20,956 nucleotides of DNA from positions 6,393 through 27,348 of the IMG/VR virus record IMGVR_UViG_3300030110_000007, one strand, 5' to 3'. Each line of letters begins with the position of its first letter. Position 1 is the first letter of the stretch. Below, piece by piece: positions 4,787 to 7,505 of this stretch. Source of the DNA: a virus. Under the pieces are notes generated by a model that worked only from the letters and a program-made list of their open reading frames with translations, ran no database searches and was not told the origin of the DNA. The position numbers and the translations under genes were made by a program.

Positions 4787-4993
4787 ATGGAGGGTAATAT
4801 TATAAGCTTTAAAGTATTTGTAAACTCTAAGGGTCAGGTTATGAGTGAATATAGTAAACTGCCAGTTGAAAAGCTAGGCACTATATTTGAAGATGATGAT
4901 ATACCCTTAGTAAAAAAAATATTAAATGAAGTAGATACTAAAGTAGGATCACTACACAGTCATTTAGAAAAAGAACTAGAAGCTTTAAACTGA
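4787..4993 (+). CDS. Small hypothetical protein after nrdB, 68 aa
   Basis: The start is taken at ATG 4787, two bases after the nrdB stop, with AAGG at 4774-4777. The in-frame ATG at 4745 lies inside nrdB and adds an unlikely N-terminus. The 68 residues contain a beta-like N-terminal part (NIISFKVFVNSKGQ), an acidic linker (FEDDDIP) and a C-terminal amphipathic helix (SLHSHLEKELEAL). There is no known motif. It is the last gene of the forward operon, and its final 9 bases overlap the end of the oppositely oriented 69-aa ORF. The function is unknown. Confidence 0.72.
   Translation: MEGNIISFKVFVNSKGQVMSEYSKLPVEKLGTIFEDDDIPLVKKILNEVDTKVGSLHSHLEKELEALN
4985..4993. other. Convergent junction of the two transcription modules
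   Basis: The last forward stop (4991-4993) and the last reverse stop (4985-4987) overlap, so the early and late operons meet tail to tail with no spacer. I looked on both sides for a GC-rich stem followed by a T run, as expected for a bidirectional terminator. I found only a weak GTAC...GTAC stem near 5050, with no T tract. Confidence 0.6.
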
Positions 4994-5194
4994 AATGTTT
5001 ACGGTCTGGGATGATGAAGATACATTGCGTACACTTATTGTCCCATGATCGTACTGATAGTACACAGTTCTGAAAACAGTAGTATCAATTCTATTAGTAC
5101 CCCCAGTAGTATCACTAACCACGTTATGGCGTGTCTGCGTATCAACGTAGCTGTTCAATAACATGTTTGAGATAGGTGATACAGGGCCTACCAT
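4985..5194 (-). CDS. Ser/Thr-rich hypothetical protein, 69 aa
   Basis: This is a 69-residue reverse ORF whose ATG overlaps the previous stop in the sequence AAATGGTAG, consistent with translational coupling; no clear ribosome-binding site is seen. The composition is unlike the Lys-rich genes upstream: many Ser, Thr and Val residues and an alternating pattern at the end (VRNVSSSSQTVNISV), suggesting beta strands. This looks like a small beta-structured protein or a fragment of a virion surface protein. It runs right up to the convergent junction and overlaps the forward gene by 9 nt. The lack of a ribosome-binding site keeps confidence moderate. Confidence 0.5.
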   Translation of the reverse strand: MVGPVSPISNMLLNSYVDTQTRHNVVSDTTGGTNRIDTTVFRTVYYQYDHGTISVRNVSSSSQTVNISV

Positions 5195-5475
5195 TTGACA
5201 CGGTTCGCCCAGTATGCCGCACTCATCTTACCCTTCTTAATGTTCGCACGGTGCCTTGCTTTGAAGCTGGCACGTTTCTTTTTCATTCGATCAGACTCTC
5301 CGGGCTTAGGCTTCCCCGCTGTACTGGCTCCCTGCTGCCCAAAGCGTATCGTCTTTATTTTGTCTCCTTCCTTTGCCACAACAATATGCGACTTCGTAGG
5401 ATGCTTTGGAGTCCTTTTGGGTTTGTTAAAGCCTGATACACCTGCGCGTTCTAAACGTGGGTCTTTCTTACTCAT
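5188..5475 (-). CDS. Small basic conserved phage protein, 95 aa
   Basis: This 95-residue protein has 28 Lys/Arg against 6 Asp/Glu. It has a Pro/Lys-rich N-terminus (FNKPKRTPKHPTKSH), a short strand-turn-strand (HIVVAKEGDKIKTIRFGQQG), and a basic C-terminal end ARHRANIKKGKMSAAYWANR closing in VKW. I recall closely similar proteins, including the SAAYWA...VKW ending, in many marine phages, always annotated hypothetical. The small beta unit with basic tails suggests nucleic-acid binding, but no named domain is evident. AGGA lies about 8 nt before the ATG, which overlaps the preceding stop as ATGA. It is part of a run of consecutive basic genes placed after lysis. Confidence 0.82.
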   Translation of the reverse strand: MSKKDPRLERAGVSGFNKPKRTPKHPTKSHIVVAKEGDKIKTIRFGQQGASTAGKPKPGESDRMKKKRASFKARHRANIKKGKMSAAYWANRVKW

Positions 5476-5720
5476 GACTTTTTCCTATATTGTCGAGTCT
5501 TCTTTGCAATCTTTTTGGGTTGTTTACTAAACTGTTTACCCTTAGCTGTATCCTCACGTTTCTTTTTAGTAGTAGCCGCATACTCCTTAGATGACAAAGA
5601 CTTGATGGCCTTCTCAGGCAGATAACGCTCTCCAGTTTCACTAGACTTCTTACCTGACTTGGTACGCCACTTTTGTTTTGTCCAAGCTTTAAGACTTCTT
5701 TGACTTTTTTTCAGTGCCAT
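5472..5720 (-). CDS. Very basic small protein (DUF5872-like), 82 aa
   Basis: Of 82 residues, 29 are Lys or Arg and only 6 are acidic. Recognisable elements are SLKAWTKQKWRTKSGKKS, TGERYLPEKAIKSLSSKEYA and a Lys-rich tail (QPKKIAKKTRQYRKKS). The Trp-Thr-x-Gln-x-Trp-Arg-Thr-Lys-Ser-Gly then GERYLP then SSxEYAAT layout matches a family I remember from marine phages, other bacteria and giant viruses, possibly Pfam DUF5872; I am unsure of the number. The role is unproven; charge and aromatic content fit DNA or RNA binding. Its start overlaps the stop of the 29-aa microprotein as TAATG. Confidence 0.82.
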   Translation of the reverse strand: MALKKSQRSLKAWTKQKWRTKSGKKSSETGERYLPEKAIKSLSSKEYAATTKKKREDTAKGKQFSKQPKKIAKKTRQYRKKS

Positions 5721-5809
5721 TATTGGTTATGCCTTTTATCCTGTTGTTGTCTAATCCACTCTGCAAGTTCTTCTTTACTTTGTTTTTCTTGCTGTACTTG
5801 TTTTGCCAT
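5720..5809 (-). CDS. 29-aa microprotein
   Basis: This short ORF reads ATG at 5809-5807 to TAA at 5722-5720. The product is MAKQVQQEKQSKEELAEWIR plus nine residues ending in RHNQ. GAGGAGG sits four bases before the ATG, one of the strongest ribosome-binding sites in the window. The stop overlaps the next ATG as TAATG, and without this ORF there would be a gap between otherwise touching genes. It overlaps the 3' end of the 100-aa basic gene by 35 nt. The peptide is predicted to be one charged amphipathic helix. The strong site could instead serve only to bring ribosomes to the downstream gene, so its status as a protein needs proof. Confidence 0.55.
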   Translation of the reverse strand: MAKQVQQEKQSKEELAEWIRQQQDKRHNQ

Positions 5810-6077
5810 GCTTCCTCCTCAGAGACTCCTTTGCCTTCTTTGCAATCTCTGCTTGTTTAGATTTACCAGCAACCTTAGCCCTCTGCTCCATTACAGTTAA
5901 GATTTGTATCTTACGTGCGTATGGTTTATTGATACCTTTTACTTTACGCGCAGTGTCTCTAGCGTCTTGTACAGTGGCGTACTTAATACGAACAGTATCT
6001 TTAGGGTTCTCATCAGTGTACAGTCTTCTACCGCTACCTTTAGGCTTTTTACCTGTACCCTTCTTAGGATCAGCCAT
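5775..6077 (-). CDS. Small basic conserved phage protein, 100 aa
   Basis: This 100-residue protein has 31 Lys/Arg and 9 acidic residues. A Gly/Lys/Pro-rich disordered start (MADPKKGTGKKPKGSGRRLY) leads into a compact central part (VRIKYATVQDARDTARKVKG), an Asn-Lys-Pro-Tyr-Ala-Arg-Lys-Ile motif and helices continuing to a basic tail. I recall similar proteins, especially the GSGRRLYTDENPKDTV and KPYARKIQILTV segments, in marine phages as hypothetical proteins. The KPYARKIQ segment looks like a helix suited to binding DNA or RNA, but this is inference. The ATG overlaps the upstream stop as TAATG and the 3' end overlaps the microprotein ORF. Confidence 0.82.
   Translation of the reverse strand: MADPKKGTGKKPKGSGRRLYTDENPKDTVRIKYATVQDARDTARKVKGINKPYARKIQILTVMEQRAKVAGKSKQAEIAKKAKESLRRKHGKTSTARKTK
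5814..5820 (-). promoter_or_regulatory. Strong ribosome-binding site for the 29-aa microprotein
   Basis: GAGGAGG lies four bases upstream of ATG 5809, inside the coding sequence of the 100-aa gene. It is the main evidence that the microprotein ORF is translated. Confidence 0.7.
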
Positions 6078-6280
6078 TACTTGTAGCCGCCGCCTGCATC
6101 TTTATAAGCCTTTGCTAACATCTGGGCTTTACGCGCACTCCACTGTCCCGGCTTACCGCCTTTGCTACCAGCTTTGATACGATTGAACTGACGCTTACGC
6201 ATTTCAGGCTTGGTATAGTTTCCTGCTTCGTTAACCCTAGACTTTGCTTTCTTTTTTGCTGGCTTCTTTTTAGCTGCCAT
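6077..6280 (-). CDS. Small basic conserved phage protein, 67 aa
   Basis: The start is taken at ATG 6280-6278, not the in-frame ATG at 6292, because GGAGG (6286-6290) overlaps the earlier ATG and sits five bases before the later one. The 67 residues include 21 Lys/Arg and 3 acidic. An AAKKKPAKKKAKSR tail is followed by AGNYTKPEMRKRQFNRIKAG and GKPGQWSARKAQMLAKAYK, ending GGGYK. I remember this NEAGNYTKP...GQWSARKAQ layout as frequent in cyanophage, pelagiphage and marine bacterial genomes, without known function. The Ala/Lys N-terminus resembles histone-H1-like tails, which suggests DNA compaction, but that is inference. It shares TAATG with the next gene. Confidence 0.85.
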   Translation of the reverse strand: MAAKKKPAKKKAKSRVNEAGNYTKPEMRKRQFNRIKAGSKGGKPGQWSARKAQMLAKAYKDAGGGYK

Positions 6281-6281
6281 G

Positions 6282-6749
6282 TCATCCTCCAAAATTTCTG
6301 ATTACAATACCTACTGCAACAACTGCTATTATACTACCAATTAAAAACACAAGTCCACCTACTGCGAGTTGGTTCATAAGTATATCTCTTTCTTTTTTCT
6401 TTTTCGCTATAAGCCGTAGGTGTTGCTGCCTAGCAGCTTCTTGCTCTGCCTTGGCTTTTTTAAACGCTTCCAAAGTGTCTGGATCTGCGACTAATAATAT
6501 ATCGTGTACGTCCTTCCAGTATCTCTCATAGCTTTTCTTAATCTGGGTGAGCTTCAAGATTTCACTCTGACTAAGCGGCTTGAACGTACTAGACTTTCGA
6601 TCTACTTCAAAGTTTGTTAAAGCTTCTCCAAAGTCACTAATAGTACCCATAAGTTGCTGGATACCCTGCCCAGACTCGTTAGCTGTCTTTATCAGCCCAT
6701 TCAGACTCGACAAGATGGCAGAAGCGGCTGCAACTGATTCTATGATCAT
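6282..6749 (-). CDS. Coiled-coil protein with C-terminal membrane anchor, 155 aa
   Basis: The 155 residues form a hydrophobic, Ala/Ser-rich N-terminal helix (MIIESVAAASAILSSLNGLI), a charged helical middle, a Lys/Glu/Gln coiled-coil at about 94-125 (LEAFKKAKAEQEAARQQHLR), and one membrane segment at about 128-150. RNFGG follows it. The gene begins with an ATGA overlap behind the holin, so it belongs to the lysis cassette by position. Rz-type inner spanins are coiled coils anchored at the N-terminus; here the anchor is C-terminal, so it is not a standard spanin. Options are an inverted spanin-like or tail-anchored lysis accessory protein, or a virion membrane protein. I recall similar tail-anchored proteins in marine podoviruses without assigned function. 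Confidence 0.82.
   Translation of the reverse strand: MIIESVAAASAILSSLNGLIKTANESGQGIQQLMGTISDFGEALTNFEVDRKSSTFKPLSQSEILKLTQIKKSYERYWKDVHDILLVADPDTLEAFKKAKAEQEAARQQHLRLIAKKKKERDILMNQLAVGGLVFLIGSIIAVVAVGIVIRNFGG
6286..6290 (-). promoter_or_regulatory. Ribosome-binding site that decides the start of the 67-aa gene
   Basis: GGAGG is five bases from ATG 6280 but directly abuts the earlier in-frame ATG at 6292, so initiation at 6280 is favoured. Confidence 0.7.
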
Positions 6750-7135
6750 TTTCTGGTCTTCTCGAAGCTCCTCATTGCACCTAAACCTAGCATACCCATG
6801 AGAACAGGCATCATAGTTTCTAGCGGAACTAGAGGAATAACAATATCCATGCCTACTAGGGCGAGTACAAAGTTAGAGAATGGTATTGTGATGAAGTTTC
6901 CAAACATTCCCAACCCACATGTCCAGCCAATGAAGGGCCTCCAGCCAGCAACAAACAAATTAGAACTAGCTGCCTCTACTTTGTTGACCTCTATCTGAGC
7001 CTTCATAAGATCTTGATGATGTTCTTCTGACATCGTTGCAATCTTGTGGGCCAGCATAGCCTTTTGATCTTTGTCTTCAATGAACTTGTCTAGCAAGCCC
7101 GTTACAGGCCCTACTAGCTGTGCTACAATACTCAT
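6746..7135 (-). CDS. Holin, GTA_holin_3TM family
   Basis: The start chosen is ATG 7135 (MSIVAQLVGPV), with GGAG 8 nt upstream. A longer in-frame start at 7189 lies inside the endolysin gene and has no such site. The 129-residue product has a charged helical N-terminal half (LDKFIEDKDQKAMLAHKI), the sequence QIEVNKVEAASSNLFVAGWR characteristic of the three-helix holins of gene transfer agents and phages (PF11351 as I recall), and hydrophobic segments at about 65-85, 86-101 and 105-122. Holins pore the inner membrane to release the endolysin encoded one base upstream. It ends SFEKTRK with a cytoplasmic-type basic tail. Confidence 0.88.
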   Translation of the reverse strand: MSIVAQLVGPVTGLLDKFIEDKDQKAMLAHKIATMSEEHHQDLMKAQIEVNKVEAASSNLFVAGWRPFIGWTCGLGMFGNFITIPFSNFVLALVGMDIVIPLVPLETMMPVLMGMLGLGAMRSFEKTRK

Positions 7136-7136
7136 A

Positions 7137-7505
7137 TTAATAACTCCAGATGTGTGGTCTTGGACGGCCTTTAGAGGATTCAAGGTCATCGAGGTGTATA
7201 AACCTTGTAGGGCCTTTCTGACTTACACCAATCCCAGTAAAGCCTGCCTCTAGAGCGCCCTGTACGAGCTTGTAAGCGGCTTCACCACGCAACCCTATGT
7301 CTATGGCCCTACCTGATGCATGTGCGCCGGGAGAGGCTTTACGGGCCTCTATGGGGTGATCAGCACAACGGTACGCAGAGTTAACAGGGAAGCTAAATCC
7401 AAGCTTCTCACGCAAGGCATCTACCTTCTGCATGAACTCATCATCCATACCAATTTCATTGCAGTGTCTGCATACCAGTTCTTCTTCTGTGAAATACTTA
7501 TACAC
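7137..7505 (-). CDS. Endolysin, M15-type zinc peptidase
   Basis: This 122-residue protein matches the small phage M15A/M15_3 peptidases that cut peptide cross-links in peptidoglycan. Zinc-site motifs are visible: SAYRCADHP (43-51), then GAHASGRAIDI with His62 and Asp69 seven apart, then FIHLDD with His104. An N-terminal CRHC at 12-15 is common in this subfamily. There is no signal peptide, so export depends on the holin next door. The start is GTG at 7505, with GAGG 7 nt upstream, overlapping the end of the 1684-aa gene by 8 nt; the weak start may limit endolysin yield. It is the first gene of the lysis cassette. Confidence 0.92.
   Translation of the reverse strand: MYKYFTEEELVCRHCNEIGMDDEFMQKVDALREKLGFSFPVNSAYRCADHPIEARKASPGAHASGRAIDIGLRGEAAYKLVQGALEAGFTGIGVSQKGPTRFIHLDDLESSKGRPRPHIWSY

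Follow-up and report, generated by a model that had tools for sequence, protein, structure and literature searches.

The DNA packaged in tailed phages is usually thought to be nearly naked. Viral core proteins, such as V, VII and mu of adenovirus or P6.9 of baculovirus, are small and basic, are made late, and occur several to a virus. The domain Tlr6f, according to the available text of PMC4642659, has been retained by almost all PLVs, by several virophages and many Megavirales, and by some phages that are poorly characterised, and has no known function. It is described in much the same way in the available parts of PMC8547959 and of PMC12220804, the latter equating it with PF19058 (DUF5754). 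One haptophyte virus carries both DUF5754 and a second domain, DUF5872 (PMC12085832, available part).

Here we analyse the window, a stretch of 20,956 nt (positions 6,393–27,348 of the 27,348-base record IMGVR_UViG_3300030110_000007) that encodes four small basic proteins, which we call A, B, C and D. D resembles Tlr6f/DUF5754 in that some of its relatives match PF19058 and its predicted fold has putative matches in giant-virus proteins. The phage D, however, lies within a presumably late module with A and C, a linkage without mention in the available text of PMC4642659, PMC12220804 or PMC8547959. DUF5872 (PF19197) matches 8 of 15 proteins in which A and C are fused (best 1.6e-6); in one of them (L111) a single model runs across both halves (6–115 of 131), its score of 25.9 narrowly missing the curated cutoff of 27.5. 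In the window, in contrast, A and C have a gene each, and DUF5872 matches neither by itself at E 0.1. DUF6321, our family E, is found in the same neighbourhoods as D and has the same C-terminal motif, but the window cluster has no E and carries D in its place. Finally, the phrog_727 proteins Bellamy gp123 and S-SCSM1_29 both combine E with an A-like domain, Bellamy's also with B, in one virion-type protein adjoining TerL. These are single polypeptides of 517–618 aa, with DUF192 in Bellamy, whereas the window has separate small genes.

Results

The closest DNA relatives of the window are CRP-13, HTVC033P and CRP-345, HMO-2011-type phages of marine alphaproteobacteria. The leftward late strand ends in the order M15 endolysin, 3TM holin, 155-aa ORF, A, B, M, C, D and a neutral 69-aa ORF (Table 1), and faces convergent rightward genes, among them those for ribonucleotide reductase subunits. 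Within nrdA, a 117-aa plus-strand ORF (391–744) is open in a different frame and is probably spurious. The 155-aa ORF has no Pfam or PHROG match at 0.01. The 69-aa ORF, of which one IMG/VR contig (L010/L090) has a copy with 87% identity, is probably the last gene of the operon, rather than D. A terminator scan of the operon gave nothing exceeding shuffled sequences, and a promoter scan revealed no clear promoter for it. By gene order, the sole basis for this assignment, A–D would be late genes.

Table 1. Genes at the end of the leftward strand of the window
Feature	Coordinates	Strand	Properties
M15 peptidase endolysin	7137..7505	minus	PF08291 4e-12, phrog_894
3TM GTA-type holin	6746..7189	minus	PF11351 3.4e-20, phrog_3427
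155-aa ORF between holin and A	6282..6749	minus	hydrophobic stretch at C-terminus
A	6077..6280	minus	67 aa, K+R 31%, net +18
B	5775..6077	minus	100 aa, K+R 31%, net +22
M	5720..5809	minus	29-aa microprotein, strong Shine-Dalgarno, overlaps B's end
C	5472..5720	minus	82 aa, K+R 35%, net +23
D	5188..5475	minus	95 aa, K+R 29.5%, net +22
69-aa neutral ORF	4985..5194	minus	overlaps D's stop (ATGGTAG); a convergent plus-strand ORF ends at 4993

As a sequence-only reading of this DNA had described, four consecutive basic genes follow the lysis genes, overlapping or abutting. Their products contain 29–35% Lys/Arg and have net charges of +18 to +23; for 12 other minus-strand ORFs compared, the ranges are 5–15% and −39 to +7. 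The junctions are TAATG between A and B and between M and C, and ATGA between C and D. GGAGGATG is located upstream of A, and GGAGGAAG precedes the start of M, which falls within the end of B.

The same reading had placed each protein in a recurrent but uncharacterised family. A, C and D match PHROG families of unknown function over their full length: D matches phrog_7595 (6e-42, residues 3–95 of 95), C phrog_14910 (2.8e-39, residues 1–80) and A phrog_17747 (5e-34, residues 8–67). For B the PHROG search gave no good match (best 0.024). The families have recognisable signatures: 'GKPGQWSARKAQ..AGGGY' in A, 'LYTDENPKDTV...KIQILTVMEQRA' in B and 'SLKAWTKQKWRTKSGK..GERYLPEKA' in C. The microprotein M, which had been counted with the set, is not a conserved member of it. 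M is lineage-specific and poorly conserved, with relatives in only 2 loci of a 409-locus set besides the window's own (69% in L170, partial in L215).

PF19058 matches 4 of 13 members of the D family (best 4e-11), and the window's own D gives no match to it at E 0.1. Twelve of the 13 D members match phrog_220, annotated 'minor head protein and DNA pilot' (best 1.4e-18). A match of D to a tail-tube initiator (0.019) was below the Pfam cutoff and was set aside as composition or chance.

We then asked how the families are distributed. By tblastn against 50,697 phage records, D was found in 50, C in 19, A in 17 and B in 9. A and C occur together in 16 of these records, which span HMO-2011-type phages, pelagiphages and Zobellviridae. 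S-EIVl, A-only by tblastn, also has C nearby by profile; S-CRES1, C-only by tblastn, has A fused to C by profile (gp97). In HMO-2011 (L008) A and C lie ~2 kb apart, with a gene annotated as methanesulfonate monooxygenase alpha subunit in between.

IMG/VR was scanned with C, D and B as queries, and the best 80 of at least ~600 matching stretches were taken for each. Among these best matches, A is encoded in 75 of the 80 C-query loci, in 46 of 78 D-query loci and in 37 of 79 B-query loci; 31 of the 79 B-query loci have neither A nor C, partly because of contig ends. In the 409-locus set, unfused A and C on one locus are on the same strand with A first in 146 of 146 pairs, and the pair is fused in 99 further loci. 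A and D are on the same strand in 153 cases, on opposite strands in 4 and far apart in 2. D can flank A–C on either side (A before D in 77, D before A in 76), often with gaps of hundreds of bases. B and C share a strand in 54 loci, with B first in 53. The loci often come from related phages, so that these counts are not independent events. The scattered, unlinked distribution named beforehand as evidence against a common role was not what we found: across marine phages the families co-occur and are linked, ordered and co-directional.

Fusions tie A and C more closely. Profile searches found 16 A–C fusion ORFs in the first 246 loci, S-CRES1 gp97 included, and 100 in 409 loci, the latter count being inflated because one scan feeding the 409-locus set used a fusion as query. 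In these DUF5872-type polypeptides A is the N-terminal half and C the C-terminal half. A longer combination is gp123 of Synechococcus phage Bellamy (618 aa), encoded between TerS and TerL, which has an N-terminal B domain (1.9e-30), an A-like WPSAYASG domain (8.3e-12), DUF192 and a C-terminal E. Such A-like cyanophage domains show distant similarity to A of the window, a SARKAQ-only profile scoring 19 bits at best, and the link of A to this WPSAYA subgroup rests on an iterative profile together with that 19-bit single-profile match.

D is fused as well. ORF125 of phage ICP1, encoded between the terminase/portal genes and the capsid genes, consists of a Peptidase_S78_2 domain (6.6e-10) followed by a C-terminal D domain (phrog_7595, 5.8e-11), and one 526-aa ORF also ends in a D domain. 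C forms the N-terminus of a 415-aa ORF (L051:8001-9248) and of a 320-aa ORF (L088:5559-6521); in the latter, the region of an SDGEFVF motif matches tail tape-measure PHROGs. A C-like segment (DWF...GKPC..., SMSKxER...KR) was noticed by eye only in the cyanophage chain proteins Bellamy gp123 and S-CREM2 gp160 (L251:3938-5794 and L412:19342-20235), where the C profile gave no match at 0.05, and we did not retain it.

D and E appear to replace one another. E is DUF6321 (PF19846), which 12 of 12 E members match and which gives no match at E 0.1 with A–D of the window. Each of ten complete phage records tested has exactly one of the two (D in six, E in four), none having both or neither. Among cultured phages, A and C are accompanied by D in CRP-13, CRP-603 and HMO-2011, and by B and E in HTVC033P. 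Among the C-query loci (best 80 of at least ~600), 46 have D only, 20 have E only and none of the 80 has both (Fisher 4e-10, computed ignoring relatedness). Both are present in one of 79 B-query loci, again from the best 80 of at least ~600. E can occupy a position next to the terminase, the gene order in MEP402 being E-A-C-TerL. The two families have a C-terminal motif, 'RRKSFxAR...W', in common. Homology between them is weak: hhalign aligned 14 shared columns with a probability of 5%, the E profile scored D members at best 2e-4, and DUF6321 matched 3 of 13 D relatives weakly (best 0.0039). A match of E to ribosomal protein eS30 (E-value 0.13) resembles shared lysine content and was set aside.

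Taken together, the linkage, the fixed order, the natural fusions and the alternation of D and E support the earlier claim that the proteins act together; DNA condensation, one of the roles it had named for them, is conjectural.

We also compared the families with virion proteomes. The available parts of two publications report CsCl-purified cyanophage virions in which mass spectrometry identified 45 proteins for S-SCSM1 (PMC9602691) and 52 of 219 ORFs for S-CREM2 (PMC10665884). A search of all 3,601 ORFs of the two complete genomes, using the family profiles, gave exactly three with a domain: S-CREM2 gp137 (E), S-CREM2 gp160 (A-like) and S-SCSM1_29 (A-like and E). In the available virion table for S-CREM2, gp137 and gp160 are listed with 4 and 7 unique peptides (PMC10665884). 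S-SCSM1_29 is labelled 'virion protein' in its record, which has 48 such labels among 282 CDS as against the 45 proteins reported in the available part of PMC9602691, so that the labelled set and the published one do not coincide. By simple proportions, which ignore their location in structural regions, the three ORFs would all fall among virion proteins with a chance of ~0.009. The idea that proteins of this set are present in virions is supported indirectly, by relatives with A-like and E domains in two cyanophage proteomes; domains of B, C or D were not found in either genome by the profile scan. By way of these relatives and of the D/E alternation, A–D themselves may be placed in the virion.

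Of 177 C loci, 67 have a terminase or portal gene no more than 5 kb away, in all cases on the same strand, and 35 have a holin or lysozyme family.

AlphaFold2 predicted a helical A–C fusion (pLDDT 87, pTM 0.53) and, for D, a beta hairpin plus helices (pLDDT 91, pTM 0.79). Fold searches of the PDB with these two models found no relative, and PDB profile searches with D, A–C, B and E alignments matched nothing. In BFVD, Foldseek matched the D fold to ICP1 ORF125, to an XkdF-like protein, to a Tunisvirus protein (TMq 0.60, prob 1.00, E 0.025) and, less surely, to a protein of Chrysochromulina ericina virus CeV-01B (prob 0.82, E 0.11). Compared by description only, the core proteins of adenovirus and baculovirus are like A–D in being small, basic, multiple and, for A–D by gene order, late; the phage proteins, however, are predicted to be folded. 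The prediction of D and A–C as folded domains with conserved Gly/Trp/Tyr motifs argues against a purely protamine-like role.

Discussion

We tentatively interpret A–D as a late, head-associated module of basic proteins that would probably bind packaged DNA or the head interior. This reading draws on the linkage, order and fusions of the families, on the alternation of D and E, on the D domain carried by a head-maturation protease, and on the A-like and E domains in virion proteins. The module would consist of A and C, often as one polypeptide, with D or E, and with B as an optional partner. Its proteins would be made alongside the packaging, head and lysis genes and would enter the capsid or its interior, where the folded basic domains would most likely attach to the packaged DNA or to the inner surface of the head. 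In this way they may help to package, organise or deliver the genome. Binding to DNA and late timing would both be part of such a role, and the exact step could be packaging, storage or ejection.

A different, and in our judgement unlikely, function would be that of cofactors in head assembly or maturation, whose basic domains would contact acidic scaffold, portal or terminase while the prohead is assembled and DNA enters, rather than chiefly organising DNA in the mature virion. The D domain on the ICP1 head-maturation protease fits such a function, as do E-A-C immediately before TerL in MEP402 and the multi-domain protein encoded between TerS and TerL in Bellamy. Against this, A-like and E-domain proteins are still found in virions after CsCl purification, according to the available parts of the two proteome papers, and in many cases the A-C-D cluster is instead close to lysis genes, 35 of 177 C loci having a holin or lysozyme family.

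We consider it decidedly unlikely that the proteins serve host takeover, being made late or delivered by the virion and binding host DNA, RNA or ribosomes. Constant association on the late strand with packaging, head and lysis genes and the fusion to a head protease speak against it, and the weak eS30 matches of E (0.13) resemble shared lysine content. Folded basic domains without PDB relatives would nevertheless suit takeover proteins, relatives in virions would also suit delivery into the host, and related families exist in viruses of eukaryotes.

It seems slightly less probable again that these are late accessory genes in loose association, small mobile ORFs that each have a role of their own and have gathered at the late ends of phages. 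The placement of D on either side of A–C (77 A>D, 76 D>A), its often long gaps, the frequent solitary occurrence of B and the varying repertoire would be expected of such genes. They would not be expected to keep A ahead of C in all 146 unfused pairs, to have the two fused in 99 others, or to leave each of the ten whole genomes tested with one, and just one, of D and E.

Disruptin of phage phiKT is a cationic lysis protein that disrupts the outer membrane. A similar role as lysis helpers is very improbable for the window genes, which are small, charged and located behind endolysin and holin, because the same families adjoin the terminase in other phages (terminase or portal in 67 of 177 C loci versus lysis genes in 35), include a head-protease fusion, virion-protein relatives and giant-virus family matches, and, rather than being amphipathic peptides, are rich in motifs and predicted to fold.

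New here are the linkage, the fusions, the alternation of D with E and the connection between Tlr6f and head proteins; in the literature on DUF5872, DUF6321/DUF5754/DUF5824 and Tlr6F we did not find the module linkage, the D/E alternation or a mapping to virions described. A wider proposal, which we regard as doubtful, is that marine tailed phages have a modular virion nucleoprotein kit, made up of A–C, either D or E, and optionally B, and that giant and polinton-like viruses of eukaryotes have its parts in common with them, with Tlr6f/DUF5754 as a conserved head-interior DNA-organising domain in both virus realms. A conserved late set of folded basic proteins, recurring in abundant ocean phages, exchanging D and E one for one and having counterparts in giant viruses, would suggest a system of the head interior that these viruses share. 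The old question of Tlr6f, widely conserved and of unknown function, gains a concrete place to look: the capsid, with A–C and the head protease as partners.
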